55,335 nt of DNA. Origin: Vicinamibacterales bacterium (GTDB lineage: Bacteria > Acidobacteriota > Vicinamibacteria > Vicinamibacterales > UBA8438). The DNA lies in assembly GCA_029940535.1 (NCBI GenBank), contig JAPYUM010000020.1, positions 1-55,335 on the forward strand, given 5' to 3'. Position 1 is the first letter of the stretch; every line of letters starts with the position of its first letter. A program made the translations under genes and the position numbers. Below, piece by piece: positions 8,005-28,834 of this stretch. A model generated the notes under the pieces. It was given only the letters and a program-made list of their open reading frames with translations, did not search any database and was not told where the DNA came from.

Positions 8005-8530
8005 CTTTGATCACGACCTCATCCAGTCCCTCCACCTCAGCCAGTCGGACCTGGACGCTCTCAGAGAGCGAGGTGGGCACGTTCTTGCCGACGTAGTCGG
8101 CCTTGATGGGCAACTCGCGGTGCCCGCGGTCTACGAGCACGGCGAGTTCAATCGCACCGGGACGGCCGAAGTCAATCAGCGCGTCGAGCGCGGCACGGAT
8201 CGTCCGCCCCGTGTACAACACGTCGTCGACCAGGAGGATCCGGCGGTCATCGATCGAGAAATCGATATCGGTCTTGCGCAGCACCGGCTGCGGACCGACG
8301 GCGTGACGCATCAAATCGTCGCGATATAGCGTGATGTCGAGGACACCGGTCGGCACGGTGGTGCCCGCAATGTCATGCAACCCGGCCGCCAGCCGACGCG
8401 CAATCGGCACTCCGCGGGTACGAATGCCGATCAACGCCAGATTGTCGAGCGTCCGGTGACGCTCGACCACTTCGTGGGCGATCCGGGTGATGCTGCGCGC
8501 GACCTGATCGGCCGCCATTACGACAGGCAC
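7988..8530 (-). CDS. pyrR: PyrR bifunctional regulator / uracil phosphoribosyltransferase
   Basis: 180 aa from GTG 8530 (GGAGG four bases upstream); ATG 8518 is an equally possible start. The PRPP-binding loop [20 protein letters not shown] is near residues 100-120. The C-terminal [15 protein letters not shown] is a PyrR signature. In known systems PyrR binds a hairpin in pyr mRNA when UMP is high and lowers expression; many homologues also have weak UPRT activity. A matching RNA site lies about 120 bases upstream (8649-8682). First gene of the minus-strand pyr run. Confidence 0.95.
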
Positions 8531-8648
8531 AAGTCCTCCCAGAGCACATGTCGCCGGACCCCGTGGCCTACGGCACACACATCGCCGCGCCGCGGCGCGT
8601 ACGTTGATGAAACGGAGGAAGTAGATGGAGGCAGGGACACGATCTGAC

Positions 8649-8682
8649 CTCTTTGCGACCTCTCAGGGCCAGCATTAAAGAG
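8649..8682 (-). promoter_or_regulatory. PyrR-binding RNA hairpin in pyrR leader
   Basis: On the minus strand the sequence folds with lower stem CTCTTT/AAAGAG, a 5' bulge AATGCT, upper stem GGCC/GGTC, and hexaloop CTGAGA. The known PyrR target consensus ARUCCNGNGAGGYU has the same stem geometry and a CNGNGA hexaloop, which is matched exactly. The stem differs from consensus by changes that keep pairing. No terminator with a U-run is visible between this site and pyrR, so control by translation or by Rho seems likelier than classical attenuation. Confidence 0.8.
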
Positions 8683-8766
8683 ACGCGCCGATTTTAGCGT
8701 ATCGATGAGGTGGTTGCCAAGGCGGTAATCCGAACCGCCACACGGTGGCGCCATGAATCCTTCGGG

Positions 8767-8772
8767 TATACT
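8767..8772 (+). promoter_or_regulatory. Possible -10 box for leaderless pyrK transcript
   Basis: TATACT lies only nine bases before the pyrK ATG (8782), and no Shine-Dalgarno sequence occurs in the short interval. If used, transcription would begin at or next to the ATG. No convincing -35 is seen 16-18 bases upstream. Offered as a weak candidate. Confidence 0.3.
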
Positions 8773-8781
8773 CGGCCGCGT

Positions 8782-9603
8782 ATGCCGGTCGACGTGGACG
8801 CGGTCGTCCTGTCCAACACCCAACTCTCGCACGACTACAACACCGTGATCCTGGCGGCCCCCCGGCTCGGTGACCAGGCCCTGCCCGGCCAATTCGTCAT
8901 GGTCAAAACCACCTATGGCGACGACCCACTGCTGCGCCGACCCTTCTCTGTGTTCGAGATCCTCCGGGACGACGCGGGCCGCAGCACGGGTGTGTCGCTT
9001 CTAAACAAGCGCATCGGGGTCACGACACGGGCCCTGTATGCACTACGACCCGGTGACCATGTCCGCTGTCTCGGTCCACTCGGGCGGCCGTTTTCGGTCG
9101 CCGAACCACCGGAGCAGGCCTGGATGGTCGCGGGCGGCGTGGGCCTGGCGGCGTTCGCCACGCTCGCCGCCAACCTACGGGCACGGCGCGTCGACACGAC
9201 CTTGTTCTACGGTGGACGACGCGCCGACGATCTGTTCCATCTGGACACCTTCGAGTCGCTCGATGTACATCTGCGACTCGCGACCGACGACGGCAGTCGC
9301 GGCGATCACGGCAACGTCACGGTCCCGCTGCGACGGGCCTTCGTGTCGACCGACCGGACGACACCGGTACGACTCTACGCGTGCGGACCGACACCGATGA
9401 TGCGGGCGGTCACCGAGCTGGCAGCGTCGGAGGGACGCGCCACCGAGGTCTCACTCGAACAGGTCATGGGATGCGGCCTCGGCGGCTGCTACAGCTGCGT
9501 CGTACCGGTGCGTGGACCCGACGGGACCCATTTCGTCCGGTCGTGCCTCGACGGACCGATCTTCGACGGGGGCTCCGTGGTTTGGGAGCAACTGGGCGAA
9601 TGA
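8782..9603 (+). CDS. pyrK: Dihydroorotate dehydrogenase electron-transfer subunit
   Basis: 273 aa from ATG 8782; the frame is open from 8710, but the extra residues do not fit the family. The ferredoxin-reductase-like fold shows the FAD motif RRPFSVFEI (about 52-60), and LLNKRIGVTT then precedes the NAD-binding region VAGGVGLAAF (about 115). The C-terminal [2Fe-2S] site is MGCGLGGCYSC with a later SCLDGP Cys. Together with PyrD it forms the class 1B enzyme that oxidises dihydroorotate with NAD+. The ATG of pyrD overlaps its stop. Confidence 0.95.
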   Translation: MPVDVDAVVLSNTQLSHDYNTVILAAPRLGDQALPGQFVMVKTTYGDDPLLRRPFSVFEILRDDAGRSTGVSLLNKRIGVTTRALYALRPGDHVRCLGPLGRPFSVAEPPEQAWMVAGGVGLAAFATLAANLRARRVDTTLFYGGRRADDLFHLDTFESLDVHLRLATDDGSRGDHGNVTVPLRRAFVSTDRTTPVRLYACGPTPMMRAVTELAASEGRATEVSLEQVMGCGLGGCYSCVVPVRGPDGTHFVRSCLDGPIFDGGSVVWEQLGE

Positions 9604-10535
9604 GCGTGGACCTGTCAGTCGATGTTGGTGGCCTTCAGCTTGCCACCCCGTTCATCGCCGCGAGCGGATGCTTCGGCTACGGCCTGGAGTACGGCGACAT
9701 CGTCGACCTCTCGACTCTGGGTGCGGTGGCGGTCAAGGGACTGTTCCTCGAGGAACGCGAGGGACACCCCCCGACGCGCATTGTGGAAACACCGAGCGGT
9801 ATGTTGAACGCCATTGGCCTGCAGGGGATCGGCGTGCGGCGATTTGTCGCCGACAAACTCCCGGGGCTGCGGGACTGCGGCGCGGTGGTGCTCGTCAACA
9901 TCTGCGGTTCGACGACTGAGGAGTATGCAGAAATTGCACGCATACTCGCCGATGCCGACGGTGTCGCCGCGATCGAATTGAACATTTCGTGCCCGAACAT
10001 CTCGAAGGGCGGCATGATGTTCGGCTCGTCCCTGCGGGGCACGCATGATGTGGTGTCGGCGGTACGCCGGGTCACGACGCTGCCGCTCATCCCGAAGCTC
10101 ACCCCCAACGTCACCGACGTTGCGTCGTTCGCGGTCGCCGCCCGCGACGCTGGCGCCGACGCGGTCTCACTGGTGAATACCTTTCTGGCCATGGCGATCG
10201 ACATCGAAACGCGACGACCGAAGCTCTCGAACGTCGTGGGTGGTCTGAGCGGCCCGGCCATCAGACCGATCGCGGTCAGGATGGTGCACGAGTGCCGGCA
10301 GGCCGCGGCCGACCTGCCAATCATCGGGATGGGTGGCATCATGACGAGCGAGGACGCGATCGAGTTCATCATCGCTGGCGCCGTGGCCGTTCAGATCGGC
10401 ACCGCGAACTTCGTGGACCCGTTCGTGTGGAGCAAGCTCCGTGAGGGCCTCACTGACTACCTGCATCGTCACGACGTGCCAAGCGTCTCCGCCCTCGTGG
10501 GTACCCTTGATACAACGAGAGGACACACCGCGTGA
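9600..10535 (+). CDS. pyrD: Dihydroorotate dehydrogenase, class 1B catalytic subunit
   Basis: 311 aa from ATG 9600 (ATGA overlap with pyrK). FMN barrel features are the N-terminal IAASGCFGYG, the substrate loop NAIGLQ (about 66), and ELNISCPN near residue 130. The latter carries the catalytic Cys that marks class 1 enzymes. LPLIPKLTPNV provides the FMN-binding Lys, and IIGMGGI and AVQIGTANF bind phosphate. It works with PyrK. The GTG of pyrF overlaps its stop by four bases. Confidence 0.97.
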   Translation: MSVDLSVDVGGLQLATPFIAASGCFGYGLEYGDIVDLSTLGAVAVKGLFLEEREGHPPTRIVETPSGMLNAIGLQGIGVRRFVADKLPGLRDCGAVVLVNICGSTTEEYAEIARILADADGVAAIELNISCPNISKGGMMFGSSLRGTHDVVSAVRRVTTLPLIPKLTPNVTDVASFAVAARDAGADAVSLVNTFLAMAIDIETRRPKLSNVVGGLSGPAIRPIAVRMVHECRQAAADLPIIGMGGIMTSEDAIEFIIAGAVAVQIGTANFVDPFVWSKLREGLTDYLHRHDVPSVSALVGTLDTTRGHTA

Positions 10536-24631: not shown

Positions 24632-25597
24632 TCAACGATGGACCGGCGTCACCGCGGGTCGCCCGCCGAGCACTTCCACCACGTTTCGCACCGCCAGCGC
24701 AGCCATCGCCGCGCGCGTCTCTCGGGTCGCGCTGCCAATATGGGGCGTCAAACAGACGTTCTCTCGCTGCAGGAGACCGGGATGCACCCGAGGCTCCTCC
24801 TCGAACACATCGAGCCCGGCCCCCGCAATCAGACGCTCTTCAAGCGCCCACGACAGCGCTTCCTCGTCCACGACCGGACCACGCGATGTGTTGATGAGAC
24901 AGGCCGACCGCTTCATTCGCGCCAGCGTCCGCCGGTTGATCACGTGCCTGGTGGTCTCGGTCAGTGGGAGGTGGAGTGACACCACATCGGACGTCAGCAG
25001 AAGCTCGTCGAGCGATACGACCGTCTCGTCAGAGACGGAGTCACGGTCGGCGCCGGGCTTGGCCGCGAACACGACCTGCATGTCGAATGCGGGCGCGACC
25101 GCGGCCACGGCCCGCCCGATGCGACCCGCGCCGACGATGCCGAGTCGCTTGCCCTGAAGCTCGCTCCCTAGCATGAAATCGAAAGTCCAGCCGGTCCAGC
25201 CGCCTCGCCGGACGGCCCGGTCGGCCTCACCGATTCGCCGCGTGACCGAGAGAATCAACGCCCACGTCAGCTCGGCGGTCGCGCCGGTGAGGATATCCGG
25301 GGTGTTGGTGACGACGATACCGCGCGCGGCCGCCGCTACCACGTCGATGTTGTCGAAGCCAACGGCAACGGTGGCGATCACGCGTAGCGAGTCGCCCGCG
25401 GCGATGGCGGCCGCATCAATGCGATCGTTGAACATGCAGATGAGTCCCTGTTTCCCACGAAGTCGCGCACACACCTCCTCATGTGGCAAATCGTCGGTCC
25501 CCGGGTGAAGATCGACCAGGCATGACGGCGCGAGCTGGTCGAGGACGGCTGAGGGCATCCGGCGCGTCACCAGCACGGCTGGCTTGGTCTCGGTCAT
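24632..25597 (-). CDS. D-2-hydroxyacid dehydrogenase (glyoxylate/hydroxypyruvate reductase-like)
   Basis: 321 aa from ATG 25597; upstream open frame overlaps a BMC gene and is rejected. The NAD(P)-binding GIVGAGRIGRAVA is near residue 152. The catalytic triad is visible: Arg in INTSRGPVVDE, Glu in DVFEEEP and His in LTPHIGS. It resembles GyaR/GhrB-type enzymes that reduce glyoxylate or hydroxypyruvate. It follows the three BMC-P genes by 37 bases and is probably co-transcribed. It may handle a product or recycle NADH for the compartment. No encapsulation peptide is obvious. Confidence 0.86.
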   Translation of the reverse strand: MTETKPAVLVTRRMPSAVLDQLAPSCLVDLHPGTDDLPHEEVCARLRGKQGLICMFNDRIDAAAIAAGDSLRVIATVAVGFDNIDVVAAAARGIVVTNTPDILTGATAELTWALILSVTRRIGEADRAVRRGGWTGWTFDFMLGSELQGKRLGIVGAGRIGRAVAAVAPAFDMQVVFAAKPGADRDSVSDETVVSLDELLLTSDVVSLHLPLTETTRHVINRRTLARMKRSACLINTSRGPVVDEEALSWALEERLIAGAGLDVFEEEPRVHPGLLQRENVCLTPHIGSATRETRAAMAALAVRNVVEVLGGRPAVTPVHR

Positions 25598-25634: not shown

Positions 25635-25907
25635 TCAATCAGCCGCACCGGATGGATCGACGATACCCACGATGGCCGCGTCCACCGGCGCGGCGCGCCG
25701 CCCAAGCGCGCTCCCGGCCGCGCGCCCCTCGAGCACGAGCAGCACCAATTCGCCGATACCGGCACCAACCGCGTCGATCGCCAACTGTGCCGCGCCCGTG
25801 GGCTCGCCCGCCTGGTCCACCGGACGGGCGAGTAGCAGCTTCGCCCCCTCGAGCTTGGGGTTCTTGCGGGTCGCGACGACCGTGCCGACTATGCGCGCCA
25901 ATCGCAT
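25635..25907 (-). CDS. BMC-P vertex protein (EutN/CcmL family), first
   Basis: 90 aa from ATG 25907, which overlaps the stop of the next BMC-P gene (TGATG). The pfam03319 signature is clear: LARIVGTVVATRKNPKLEG at the start, QLAIDAVGAGIGELVLLVLEG in the middle and APVDAAIVGIVD near the end. Pentamers of this family cap the twelve vertices of microcompartment shells. It is the last of three tandem BMC-P genes. Confidence 0.94.
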   Translation of the reverse strand: MRLARIVGTVVATRKNPKLEGAKLLLARPVDQAGEPTGAAQLAIDAVGAGIGELVLLVLEGRAAGSALGRRAAPVDAAIVGIVDPSGAAD

Positions 25908-26236
25908 CAGCTCTGGCCCTTCACAGCGGCGCGGCCGGACCGACGGCGGGGCGGGGGTCTGGTGCCGCTGGCATCCAGGCTCCACTGGTCGCAGATGCCG
26001 ATGACGCTCGCGTCGGTGGGCACCGCGGCCGGAAGGAACGGGAACGAGGCCTCGCGTCCGCGGACGAAGAACACCTCCTCACCGCGACCCGCCCCGACCG
26101 AGTCTACAGCCACCAACGGGACACCAACCGTCTCGCGCTCGGGGGATAACGGCTGCAACACCAGGAGCGTGCGCCCGGCCAGACCTGGGTCCTTGGTCGT
26201 GGCGACGACGGTACCAATAACTCGAGCCAGGTGCAT
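25907..26236 (-). CDS. BMC-P vertex protein (EutN/CcmL family), second
   Basis: 109 aa. Same fold: LARVIGTVVATTKDPGLAG, VAVDSVGAGRGEEVFFVRG, VPTDASVIGICD. It differs from its neighbours by a basic C-terminal tail (residues about 92-109, RPPPRRRSGR) that would project from the pentamer and could contact cargo or nucleic acid. Translationally coupled to the first BMC-P gene. No good Shine-Dalgarno sequence is seen before its ATG; it begins nine bases after the third BMC-P gene. Confidence 0.93.
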   Translation of the reverse strand: MHLARVIGTVVATTKDPGLAGRTLLVLQPLSPERETVGVPLVAVDSVGAGRGEEVFFVRGREASFPFLPAAVPTDASVIGICDQWSLDASGTRPPPRRRSGRAAVKGQS

Positions 26237-26245
26237 GGGGCAGGC

Positions 26246-26521
26246 TCAGGACGCCTCGTTGGTCGAGACCACATCGACGATGCCGATGATCGCCGCATCG
26301 ATCGGGCGATCGGCCTGGCCGGCCGCCATTCTCGCGGAACTGCCGCTCACCACCAGCACCGTTTCCGCCGCGCCAGCATCCACGGTATCAACGGCGACGA
26401 TTGGGCCACCCCGGGCCTCGCCGTCCGGTAGGACGGGCTGGACGAGCAACAATGTGCTCCCGACCAGCCGCTCGTCTTTACGAGTGGCAACGATGGTGCC
26501 CACGACTTTGCCCAGAATCAT
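26246..26521 (-). CDS. BMC-P vertex protein (EutN/CcmL family), third
   Basis: 91 aa. Signature LGKVVGTIVATRKDERLVG, VAVDTVDAGAAETVLVVSG, PIDAAIIGIVD. Three divergent BMC-P copies in a row are characteristic of aldolase-type compartments of the Planctomycetes-Verrucomicrobia (PVM) kind and relatives. The gene is separated from BMC-H by 118 bases containing a strong hairpin. Confidence 0.94.
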   Translation of the reverse strand: MILGKVVGTIVATRKDERLVGSTLLLVQPVLPDGEARGGPIVAVDTVDAGAAETVLVVSGSSARMAAGQADRPIDAAIIGIVDVVSTNEAS

Positions 26522-26639: not shown

Positions 26640-26927
26640 TCACTTGCCGGCGCTCTTGCCGATAGGCAGCACGTCTTCGAGGTCGGCGTGGGGACGCGGA
26701 ATGACATGCACGGAGACCAGTTCGCCGACTCGCCGCGCTGCCGCCGCGCCGGCATCAGTCGCCGCCTTCACGGCCGCCACGTCGCCTCGCACGATGGTCG
26801 TCACGAACCCCGCACCGATCTTCTCCCAGCCGATCAGCGTGACGTTGGCGGCCTTCACCATGGCATCCGACGCTTCGATCATCGCGACGAGTCCCTTTGT
26901 CTCCACCATGCCGAGCGCCTCGCCCAT
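26640..26927 (-). CDS. BMC-H hexameric shell protein
   Basis: 95 aa. Single BMC domain: [22 protein letters not shown] at the N-terminus and [21 protein letters not shown] in the middle, with VHVIPRPH near the C-terminus. Hexamers tile the facets of microcompartment shells, and the loop at KIGAG lines the central pore (KIGSG or GIGSG in many relatives). This is the only BMC-H in the window and there is no BMC-T. A perfect AGGAGG six bases from the ATG suggests strong translation, as expected for the major shell component. Confidence 0.96.
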
Positions 26928-26976: not shown

Positions 26977-27828
26977 CTAACGCAGCTGGTTGACAGCATC
27001 CGCAATCAACGCCGTGAGTTCGCGGTATGTTAGTCGAACTTCATCATCCAGACCTAGCGCCGCGGCGCTCGGCCCCGACGCCGGGGTCACCAACCGGGCA
27101 TCGGGACTCGACGGCGCGTCCACGGTCTGGCAACTGACCTCATCCCCGACCTCCTGATCCGGTGCGCACAACGGCGCCGGCGCCGCAATCCCGTATCGAT
27201 CGCGCAGGCTCTGGAGACGATCGACCTCTTCACGTGATAGCACCCGCTCCCCGCCCAGTTGCCTCGCCACCAGACTGATACGGGCGAAATGCTCGACCGT
27301 CTCCATCTTGTAATAGGCCGCGAACAACTCCTGGGCCACCGTCAATGCCCCATGATTGGCCAGCAGCAACCCGTCGTGGGCACTGATGTAGTGCCGCACG
27401 GCGTCGGCCAGTTCAGCCGTCGAAGGTGTCCCATAGTCGGCGATCGGAATGCTCCCCAGCGTGGTGACCACTTCGGCCAGGACCGCTCGGTCCAGCGGAA
27501 TCCCAGCCACCGCGAACCCCGTCGCCGTGGGCGGGTGCGCATGCACGACGGCATTGATCTCCGGTCTGTGTTCATAAACCGCCAGATGCATCAGAATCTC
27601 GGACGAGGCCTCACGATCACCGGTCAGCTTCCGGCCGGCCAGGTCGGTCGTGACCATCATGTCCGGCGTCATGAACCCCTTCGACACGCCGGTGGGCGTC
27701 AGCAGCAGGCGGTCGTCATCGAGCCGGACGCTGATATTGCCATCGTTCGACGCCACGAACCCACGGGCGTAGACACGCCGACCGATCTCGACGATGTCGG
27801 CCCGAAGACGTTCCTCGACCTGCATCAT
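26977..27828 (-). CDS. Class II (fuculose-phosphate type) aldolase with C-terminal encapsulation-like peptide
   Basis: 283 aa from ATG 27828, overlapping the YHS gene stop (ATGA). Residues 1-215 form the aldolase II domain. Catalytic Glu77 lies in EASSEILMH, zinc ligands His96 and His98 in VVHAHPP, and a third His in LLANHGALTV. Family members cleave sugar 1-phosphates to DHAP and lactaldehyde or glycolaldehyde. A low-complexity Pro/Ser/Ala linker (about 215-258) ends in an amphipathic helix (DEVRLTYRELTALIADAV). This is the usual layout of a peptide that docks enzymes to the inner BMC shell. Likely the signature enzyme of the compartment. Confidence 0.9.
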   Translation of the reverse strand: MMQVEERLRADIVEIGRRVYARGFVASNDGNISVRLDDDRLLLTPTGVSKGFMTPDMMVTTDLAGRKLTGDREASSEILMHLAVYEHRPEINAVVHAHPPTATGFAVAGIPLDRAVLAEVVTTLGSIPIADYGTPSTAELADAVRHYISAHDGLLLANHGALTVAQELFAAYYKMETVEHFARISLVARQLGGERVLSREEVDRLQSLRDRYGIAAPAPLCAPDQEVGDEVSCQTVDAPSSPDARLVTPASGPSAAALGLDDEVRLTYRELTALIADAVNQLR

Positions 27829-28100
27829 GCGCCTTTGGCAGTTGCGCGTTGCCCCTGCTGAAAGCCGGTTCGGCAATCTTCTGAGCAGAAGTGGTGGGTT
27901 TCACCCTTGTGACGCAGGGTGATGGCTCGGCTCCGATCAATATAGGTGCCGCAGGCCGGATCACGCACCAGCGACACCGCCTTCGTGGGCGGTACCTGAG
28001 GCCGGGTCGTCGCGCCCTGGGCGAGTCCAGCCAGAAACTTCCAAGCCAGCCGCAGCAGGACCACTGTGATGAGAAACCGGATCAGCCAACCAAACACCAT
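27825..28100 (-). CDS. Membrane-anchored YHS/PP0621-like cysteine-rich protein
   Basis: 91 aa. An N-terminal membrane helix (LIRFLITVVLLRLAWKFLAGL) is followed by a YHS-type metal-binding segment with DPACGTYI and HHFCSEDCRTGF. Related proteins are small, often next to metal or sulfur genes, and of unknown function. The stop overlaps the aldolase start, so it belongs to the BMC operon, which is unusual for shell loci. Starts 15 bases after the TPR gene. Confidence 0.75.
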   Translation of the reverse strand: MVFGWLIRFLITVVLLRLAWKFLAGLAQGATTRPQVPPTKAVSLVRDPACGTYIDRSRAITLRHKGETHHFCSEDCRTGFQQGQRATAKGA

Positions 28101-28115: not shown

Positions 28116-28685
28116 CTAATGAACCGCGCGGAGACTCTCGAGCGCCTCGGTCGCCGCGAGCGCTTCGGCACTGCCCGGAGCCACACGCAGGACCTCTTCC
28201 CAGGCGGACATGGCGCCGGCGAGGTCACGATTACCGAATGCGCGGACCATTCCGAGACTGAGAAACGTCTTGGGGTGCGCCGGATCCATCTCGAGTGACC
28301 GATCAAACTGGGCGAGCGCACGTTCGGTATCCTCCAGATAGTAGTAGGCCAGGGCCAGGTCGGTGCTGACGTCGACCTCGTCGGGCTCCATCTCCAACAC
28401 CGCTTCATACCAGGGGACCGCTTCCTCAAACCGTTGGGCATAGAAATAGAGGTTACCGAGGTCCACACGGGCTTGGGTGTCGGCCGGTGATTGTTCGGCC
28501 GCCTGACGCAGCTCTGCGGCCCGGGTCTCGTCGACCGGCGGCACGGCGGGCCCCGACTCCACCGACGACGACGCGTTGGCGACGGTCACCGGCTCGACCG
28601 GGCGCTGGGACCAGACGACCCACCCCATCAACCCGCACGCGACCCCGAGCGAGACGACGAGCGGCAACGGTTCGATACGTGTCAT
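28116..28685 (-). CDS. Membrane-anchored TPR protein
   Basis: 189 aa from ATG 28685 (ATG 28724 is an alternative). One N-terminal membrane segment (LPLVVSLGVACGLMGWVVWS), then about three TPR units. These are ARVDLGNLYFYAQRFEEAVPWYEAV, a unit at VSTDLALAYYYLEDTERAL, and one at TFLSLGMVRAFGNRDLAGAM. This CcmH/NrfG-like layout suggests an assembly or scaffold role. It heads the run that leads into the YHS, aldolase and shell genes. A GCCCGA/TCGGGC hairpin (28793-28807) lies upstream, between it and pdxJ. Confidence 0.75.
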   Translation of the reverse strand: MTRIEPLPLVVSLGVACGLMGWVVWSQRPVEPVTVANASSSVESGPAVPPVDETRAAELRQAAEQSPADTQARVDLGNLYFYAQRFEEAVPWYEAVLEMEPDEVDVSTDLALAYYYLEDTERALAQFDRSLEMDPAHPKTFLSLGMVRAFGNRDLAGAMSAWEEVLRVAPGSAEALAATEALESLRAVH

Positions 28686-28834
28686 GGCGGTACGGGAGTA
28701 TGACTCTGCGCTCTCGTCGATCATAGCAGCCTGTGATAGTTCTACCACCGCGGCTACCACCCCGCGGCGCGGGCGCGGGCCGAACGCGACCAGCCCGAAA
28801 GTCGGGCGTGTGGCCCCACCCCGACTCGTCTGGA

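Follow-up and report, generated by a model that had tools for sequence, protein, structure and literature searches.

A probable encapsulation peptide on a cysteine-bearing linker in the class II aldolase of an ACI-type microcompartment locus from Vicinamibacterales

Introduction

The described system closest to the locus considered here is the ACI type of bacterial microcompartment, which occurs in Acidobacteria, mainly in subdivisions 4 and 6 (Sutter 2021, PMC8217296). As outlined there, it combines a class II aldolase “with a C-terminal EP” (i.e. an encapsulation peptide) with a hydroxyacid dehydrogenase, a triplet of BMC-P shell proteins and at least one BMC-H, while an aldehyde dehydrogenase (AldDH) is found on a satellite locus. 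By search listing, the word “cysteine” has no occurrence in that article, its supplementary data lying outside this scope.

Encapsulation peptides are better characterised in the Pdu and Eut systems, where those of PduP, PduD, PduL and EutC are terminal amphipathic helices of about 18 residues carried on a disordered linker; in PduD, PduP and PduL the peptide is N-terminal (PMC12108088), and the linkers are described as poorly conserved (PMC12339742). For Pdu peptides it has been reported that such helices support packaging (PMC12108088), and the encapsulation peptides of metabolosomes are reported to drive condensation of the cargo (Nat Commun 2025, PMC12339742); the string “cystein” is absent from the main texts of both papers. 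Another relevant group is that of the PVM and PVM-like microcompartments (fucose, rhamnose), in which a PF00596 aldolase is the signature enzyme (Axen 2014, PMC4207490). The nearest precedent found for cysteines in a comparable setting is CsoS2 of the alpha-carboxysomes, a disordered shell-binding protein in which conserved cysteine pairs of the middle-region repeats may form shell-stabilising disulfides, and in which mutation of the cysteines left growth in air unimpaired (PMC11365436); the likeness is one of description, and no sequence relation is claimed.

The window (the whole stretch of DNA that was analysed, 55,335 nucleotides from a Vicinamibacterales bacterium) contains a locus of the ACI type, and its aldolase resembles the Pdu and Eut cargo proteins in having a terminal amphipathic helix on a linker that is predicted to be disordered. 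It differs from them in that the helix is C-terminal and in that the linker carries, throughout the order, an almost invariant block of the form Cys/CQxxxAP. The cysteines of this linker are conserved in the window's aldolase and its relatives but are not mentioned for the ACI type in the text of Sutter 2021 (PMC8217296) as covered by the search listing, nor were they found in the open-access literature, a scope that left most subscription papers and all supplements aside.

Samples and methods

Relatives within the order were collected by comparing the aldolase core alone, with the tail excluded, against genome contigs and keeping the best 80 of 256 relatives, giving 80 named loci; a search of the phylum added 30 further order loci, the window included. 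The order tails thus total 110, of which 108 are complete and 89 distinct. The phylum sample comprised 396 genomes, 229 of which match the aldolase with an E of at most 1e-20 and 164 of which have BMC-P, and 80 regions around aldolases were compared, 55 of them from shell-bearing genomes and 24 from shell-negative genomes belonging to one family (f19). The shell status of the 55 was defined by BMC-P, except that G104 and G080 have only BMC-H and G188 only a BMC-H fragment. Shell negativity means that neither PF03319 nor PF00936 was matched; PF00936 was tested in 69 of the 82 aldolase-bearing genomes negative for BMC-P (4 of the 69 were positive), and the other 13 were left unused.

The threshold for a helix was a hydrophobic moment of 0.45 in counts of distinct rows and 0.40 on the tree. 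Two loci in which the aldolase is cut by the record end (L096 and L107) are left out of the tail counts; the distinct-row counts leave out L001 and L004, which are the window itself (entered once), and L194-L197, which are second copies of L178, L131, L138 and L179, and in them seven shell-negative rows are counted with the PVM-like set. The tree leaves out rows whose cores are duplicates, along with L131 and L215 (a shell-gene fragment or a single BMC-H); of the rows from the order, about one in six was kept, together with five named rows. AlphaFold2 was run on the aldolase with a 40-row alignment (mean pLDDT 73). Ratios of dN/dS were sought for 12 selected pairs, 11 of which were computable, the helix contributing only 19-21 codons to each.

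Results

The locus and its satellite

The features of the locus are collected in Table 1. The stop of the small YHS-like protein overlaps the start of the aldolase, and this protein is a recurrent neighbour across the order; it is conceivable that it is a membrane-anchored metal-binding partner. The exact gene order TPR-YHS-ALD-BMCH-3xBMCP-HDH is found in 51 of the 80 named loci, and 77 of the 80 include a shell gene; the exceptions are L096 and L107, in which the sequence does not extend past the aldolase, and L050, which is without the cassette.

Table 1 Positions in the window of the aldolase, the parts of its C-terminal extension and the neighbouring genes.
Feature	Position	Strand	Basis or remark
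TPR protein, recurrent upstream neighbour	28116..28760	-	Pfam
Small YHS-like protein with N-terminal hydrophobic stretch and cysteine motif	27825..28100	-	PF04945, 27.8 bits, below the cut-off of 30.3
Class II aldolase (PF00596), 283 aa, stop included	26977..27828	-	Best start ATG 27828
C-terminal extension past the aldolase fold, residues 215-283	26980..27186	-	PDB alignment, AlphaFold2
Cys221, first conserved linker cysteine	27166..27168	-	Codon, alignment
Cys233, second conserved linker cysteine	27130-27132	-	Start of block CQTVDAPSSPDARLV
Conserved linker block CQTVDAPSSPDARLV, residues 233-247	27088..27132	-	Alignment
Conserved motif EVRLTYRELTALIADAVNQLR containing the terminal helix	26980-27042	-	Conservation
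Terminal amphipathic helix, residues 268-282, probable encapsulation peptide	26983..27027	-	AlphaFold2, hydrophobic moment, conservation
BMC-H shell protein (PF00936)	26640..26927	-	Pfam
BMC-P shell protein 1 of 3 (PF03319)	26246..26521	-	Pfam
BMC-P shell protein 2 of 3 (PF03319)	25907..26236	-	Pfam
BMC-P shell protein 3 of 3 (PF03319)	25635..25907	-	Pfam; start inferred at internal ATG
D-2-hydroxyacid dehydrogenase (PF00389/PF02826)	24632..25597	-	Pfam; start inferred at internal ATG

Elsewhere in the source genome there is one more match to BMC-H (contig 128, 65061-65288), and beside it, in what is evidently the satellite locus, lies an AldDH of 608 codons (contig 128, 63167-64990, corresponding to 8165-9991 of locus L003). 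Set against the published description of the ACI type, the locus therefore shows every feature listed there (Sutter 2021, PMC8217296): a PF00596 aldolase with a C-terminal encapsulation peptide (recognised as such by sequence and prediction only), a PF00389/PF02826 dehydrogenase, a BMC-P triplet, at least one BMC-H and a satellite AldDH. The host also agrees: among named records, the closest ten are MAGs labelled Acidobacteria or Vicinamibacterales, the best of them 98% identical over the aldolase core; some farther records stand under other names, and are probably misnamed bins. Vicinamibacteria correspond to Acidobacteria subdivision 6.

The satellite AldDH has a C-terminal extension of its own, comprising a helix-like stretch GIDPALLSGRIETFLASRGI followed by a 45-residue module of the pattern FVCEDDVRxAxxxGRxIxIxxRTIITPAARDLGE, for which Pfam gave no match. 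This module is present in all 30 AldDH loci examined (its own included), and its cysteine in 29 of them. A relative of it forms the N-terminus of PVM-like aldolases (L303 7451-7813, L305 7190-7447), the AldDH segment matching that of L303 with a BLASTP E of 6e-9 in a single comparison; judged from these likenesses, it seems to be an unnamed microcompartment domain that moves between cargo enzymes and between termini. In one family (L125, L178 and L180, from genomes G156, G104 and G164) the AldDH is encoded together with the aldolase and two BMC-H in a single cluster, with no satellite, which ties the AldDH directly to the aldolase.

The aldolase core

The open reading frame of the aldolase spans 26977-27876 on the minus strand. 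It opens with a TTG, yet the ATG at 27828 is preferred as the start codon; in the sequence ATGA this codon overlaps the stop of the gene upstream. Aldolase_II is the sole Pfam domain, ending at residue 201 of the 299-aa form of the frame, i.e. residue 185 counted from ATG 27828. In phmmer comparisons with PDB sequences, residues 7-213 align with the fuculose phosphate aldolase 6btd and residues 10-203 with E. coli FucA (1fua), and by these alignments the core is a FucA-like class II aldolase to about residue 213. Glu77, His96, His98 and His159 are invariant in the 40-row alignment (window included); we take these to be the catalytic glutamate and the metal ligands of FucA. When the AlphaFold2 model was submitted to Foldseek, YgbL, FucA-type (fuculose-1-phosphate) and related aldolases came first, and the idea of an unexpected fold in the core was rejected on this account.

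Among the best 25 of 30 NCBIfam matches no family exceeds its cut-off, the best being 3-oxo-tetronate 4-phosphate decarboxylase with 142.9 bits against a cut-off of 250. The first-pass annotation had taken the aldolase to be the core activity of the compartment; support for this is indirect, the ACI type being placed by Sutter 2021 (PMC8217296) among those without an obvious aldehyde-generating signature enzyme.

The C-terminal extension

Since homology to PDB sequences stops at residue 213 at the latest, residues 215-283 constitute an extension, and the presence of a tail of about 70 extra residues on the aldolase is real; the first-pass annotation had located it correctly and in the right frame (26977-27190 on the minus strand, covering residues 214-283 and the stop). 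In the AlphaFold2 model the tail ends in a helix over residues 268-282 (pLDDT 77 over residues 271-280), preceded over residues 212-267 by neither helix nor any strand of at least three residues. The pLDDT of the linker is 47-65, but that of the core is also low locally (below 50 at residues 107-132, 57-65 at 181-210), so that disorder of the linker is not sharply shown, and its flexibility is a prediction only.

The 17-mer TYRELTALIADAVNQLR has a hydrophobic moment of 0.53, a value matched or beaten by 0.3% of 20,000 shuffles, and the tail thus ends, by moment and by model, in an amphipathic helix within the range of about 15-20 residues usual for encapsulation peptides. The first-pass annotation had proposed such a helix, and it does exist, but the string quoted for it, DEVRLTYRELTALIADAV, lies slightly upstream of the helix proper and has a moment of 0.40, attained by 5.6% of 20,000 shuffles. 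In the 40-row alignment Leu266, Tyr268, Leu271 and Leu274 are invariant, and Glu263, Arg265, Thr267, Ile275, Ala278 and Val279 nearly so; across the order the helix is kept in all 89 distinct complete tails (87 by regular expression, 2 as close variants recognised by eye). Outside the order, the 55 tails from shell-bearing genomes end, again by eye, in ITLTRxELxxLIxxAV or in another amphipathic type. The stretch compared contains no shell gene in seven of these 55 regions by a first scan and in six by a second.

The linker is a different matter, being partly variable among relatives in both length and sequence outside its conserved block. In all 11 computable pairs its dN/dS exceeds that of the core, while the dN/dS of the helix is lower than that of the linker in nine of the 11, the exceptions being the window with L035, and L048 with L051.

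A profile built from 27 such helices recovers the aldolase from the source genome with E 1.2e-10, while every other match has an E of 0.087 or worse, on which ground the idea of a second cargo bearing the same helix was rejected. The idea that the satellite AldDH has the same address was likewise rejected, its C-terminal helix differing in sequence. That the peptide is not recognisably shared with other proteins of the genome counts somewhat against the encapsulation reading.

The linker cysteines

The linker had initially been described as low in complexity (Pro, Ser, Ala, Asp), and as regards composition this is near the mark, Ala, Pro, Gly and Asp being abundant in it; what the description misses is that the linker also holds Cys221, Cys233 and the block CQxxxAPxxxxxRLV. 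The pattern of two cysteines with the second in CQ (C...CQxxxAPxxxxxRLV) is found in 88 of the 89 distinct tails of the order (87 with exactly two cysteines and one with three), the distance from the first cysteine to the second ranging from 9 to 39 residues. Poor conservation of the linker, which is the usual description for encapsulation peptides rather than a strict requirement, is therefore not what is seen here. Outside the order, at least one cysteine is present in 54 of the 55 tails from shell-bearing genomes, 24 having two or more and 30 a single one, and several families show CxxC motifs. Cysteine makes up 2.6% of tail residues in the order and 3.5% in these 55, as against 0.75% in the cores. 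On these alignments the tail has, besides its helix, a second conserved element in the linker, namely at least one cysteine in general and two in this order.

The likeliest role of these cysteines would be to form a disulfide or metal bridge by which contacts among cargo proteins, or between cargo and shell, may be stabilised, much as has been suggested for the cysteine pairs of CsoS2. The variable spacing favours a disulfide or intersubunit linkage over a single rigid metal site, whereas the CxxC forms of other families favour metal, and the tails with only one cysteine, which make up 30 of the 55 from beyond the order, are ill-suited to an internal disulfide.

Tails in genomes with and without shell genes

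Among ACI-type aldolases from shell-bearing genomes, all 142 distinct rows (window included) have a tail of at least 25 residues, and in 136 of them the helix is over the threshold of 0.45, six missing it; in shell-negative genomes, 7 of 25 distinct rows have a tail of that length and only one, L050, passes the threshold. Together with the published assignment (Sutter 2021, PMC8217296), this supports well the initial proposal that the tail is an encapsulation peptide and the aldolase a cargo. None of the 24 shell-negative aldolases of family f19 exceeds the threshold (the highest moment is 0.436, in L175), 15 of them ending within 11 residues of the core and the longest tail having 50; nor is there such a helix in the 18 other shell-negative rows, in all of which the tail ends within 16 residues.

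Cysteines are present in the tails of 141 of the 142 distinct ACI-type rows from shell-bearing genomes (the exception is L190) and in 3 of the 25 from shell-negative genomes, all three in tails of 10-11 residues; the other shell-negative rows have none (0 of 18). The PVM-like aldolases of Acidobacteria from shell-bearing genomes are only 31-38% identical to the core of the window's enzyme but, like it, have a cysteine-bearing linker and a terminal helix; several PVM-like copies differ from it in having an N-terminal module. Six of these seven rows carry a tail cysteine, the seventh being a tail-less paralogue in G171. All six long-tailed copies have two or more cysteines, four of the six have helices over 0.45 (L319 and L323 miss it), and five stand beside BMC-P, the sixth (G062) beside AldDH only. 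Among nine PVM-like copies from eight shell-negative genomes a single one has a tail cysteine, in a tail of 12 residues.

A quick tree of 133 rows contains six independent pairs on supported branches that differ in shell genes. Cysteine tracks the shell in 4.8 of these six contrasts on average and opposes it in none (median p 0.0625, ranging to 0.25), while the helix tracks it in 2.2 and opposes it in 1.0. If only tails of at least 25 residues are considered (93 rows, 13 of them shell-negative), cysteine agrees with the shell in 4.9 of five pairs, again with none opposed (median p 0.0625). That the tail cysteines follow the presence of shell genes is thus suggested, though not established, by these comparisons.

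The first-pass annotation had named conservation of the same tail in genomes without BMC genes as the finding that would tell against its reading. Helix-like endings do persist in some shell-negative genomes, but those tails lack cysteine. They comprise L050 and G289 among ACI-type aldolases and, among PVM-like ones, G007, G258, G388 and both copies in G394; in G007, G388 and the two G394 copies the helices are over the threshold, while that of G258 (0.448) falls just under 0.45 and is classed as similar to an encapsulation peptide by its sequence pattern. The same holds for G289, a genome listed as 100% complete in 30 contigs in which neither shell family was found: its tail ends in ...EKLEVTRQQLLALIDEALRV, with a moment of 0.437 that is about equal to that of L175 in family f19. 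The G394 aldolases (L334 7135-8175, L335 6928-7890) have helix-like sequences at both ends, the N-terminal ones recognised by eye, which would be unexplained unless they serve some shell-free assembly; one copy adjoins an apparent sugar kinase, isomerase and DeoR-type regulator, as judged from the first 50 residues of these neighbours.

The clearest case is that of L050 (PBHT01000034.1). The order TPR-YHS-aldolase-hydroxyacid dehydrogenase-endonuclease is retained but the shell cassette is absent, only 188 bases lying between the final codon of the aldolase and the match to the dehydrogenase, as against about 1.55 kb in L048; neither PF00936 nor PF03319 has a match in the 1.5-Mb genome, whereas three relatives each have two BMC-H and three BMC-P. 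Its tail keeps the helix, with other residues in place of the two linker cysteines. The locus contains 217 ambiguous letters in 10.9 kb, none of them in the stretch that was inspected, but the genome is a small draft, so that shell genes located elsewhere may have escaped assembly.

Discussion

As all the features of the ACI type are present and a C-terminal encapsulation peptide is part of its description, the assignment made here is sound but not new for this type: the peptide on the ACI aldolase is a published finding (PMC8217296), here confirmed in a further genome. By its sequence the tail is very probably a tag that carries the aldolase into a protein-shelled organelle, and to the full reading, in which the tail is the C-terminal encapsulation peptide of a cargo aldolase in an ACI-type microcompartment and the cysteines of its linker appear to follow the shell genes, we assign a probability of about 0.87. 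Mechanistically, the hydrophobic face of the helix (Leu271, Leu274, Ile275, Ala278, Val279 and Leu282) would pack on the inner face of the shell and on other cargo peptides, by which the aldolase would become condensed and enclosed; the enclosed enzyme would then release an aldehyde to be oxidised inside the shell by the satellite AldDH.

Several other readings have to be weighed against this. That the tail is an unselected low-complexity extension with no function is extremely improbable, for although some stretches of the linker are free to change in both sequence and length, the helix and the cysteine block are conserved throughout the order and the helix is in most pairs under tighter constraint than the linker. 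It is also improbable, if less drastically so, that the extension serves the enzyme itself, its proximal part with the cysteines either extending the lid of the active site or acting as a site for metal or for oligomer contacts. The linker does begin directly after Tyr212, which by offset corresponds to Tyr209, close to the C-terminus of E. coli FucA (1fua), a residue mutated in solved variants, and the CxxC motifs of several families could be taken in the same sense; but shell-negative homologues manage without the extension, a spacing between the two cysteines that ranges so widely does not suit such a site, and the AlphaFold2 model, at low confidence, has no packed structure there. More deserving of attention, though still unlikely, is the view that the helix is primarily a self-association element that condenses the aldolase, perhaps with partners, even where no shell is present, enclosure being secondary. 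The endings similar to encapsulation peptides in shell-negative genomes, some of which (G394, G388) also seem by eye to have an N-terminal helix, would be expected on this view, as would the fact that the helix of L050 is still constrained relative to L048 (pN 0.07, pS 0.63), and it accords with the reported condensation of cargo by metabolosome peptides (PMC12339742); on the other hand, the helix is missing from both shell-negative control sets, whereas nearly all shell-bearing rows have it. Such self-association is in any case compatible with a role as encapsulation peptide rather than opposed to it. Helix-like tails in shell-negative genomes do mean that the helix alone is no proof of encapsulation, and on the sequences compared it appears to be a strong but imperfect sign of enclosure.

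As regards the cysteines, their association with the shell could instead reflect shared ancestry combined with gaps in draft genomes, the cysteines being incidental; this we consider a real possibility, albeit somewhat doubtful. There are only 5-6 independent contrasts, with a median p of 0.0625, the L050 genome and G188 are incomplete or fragmented, and one row from a shell-bearing genome (L190) has no cysteine. Set against this are the retention of two cysteines in 88 of 89 tails despite varying linker length and spacing, and the same direction of association in the second, distantly related clade of aldolases, with no opposed contrast. Returning to the encapsulation reading, a tentative extension of it, to which we would give rather less than even odds, is that the address has two parts: an encapsulation helix, and shell-dependent linker cysteines acting as a redox or metal latch that joins cargo enzymes to one another or to the shell, the cysteines being lost after the shell while the helix lingers.

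What is added here to the published encapsulation peptide, then, is the cysteines of the linker. If they do depend on the shell, this would amount to a testable statement about the chemistry of the lumen (its redox state or metals) and about cargo assembly in a large and little-cultured group of bacteria. Natural losses of the shell, as in L050 and G289, would allow the function of the helix in condensation to be separated from enclosure without engineering, and if the two-part address is correct, the linker cysteines would indicate true cargo in genomes more reliably than the helix does.
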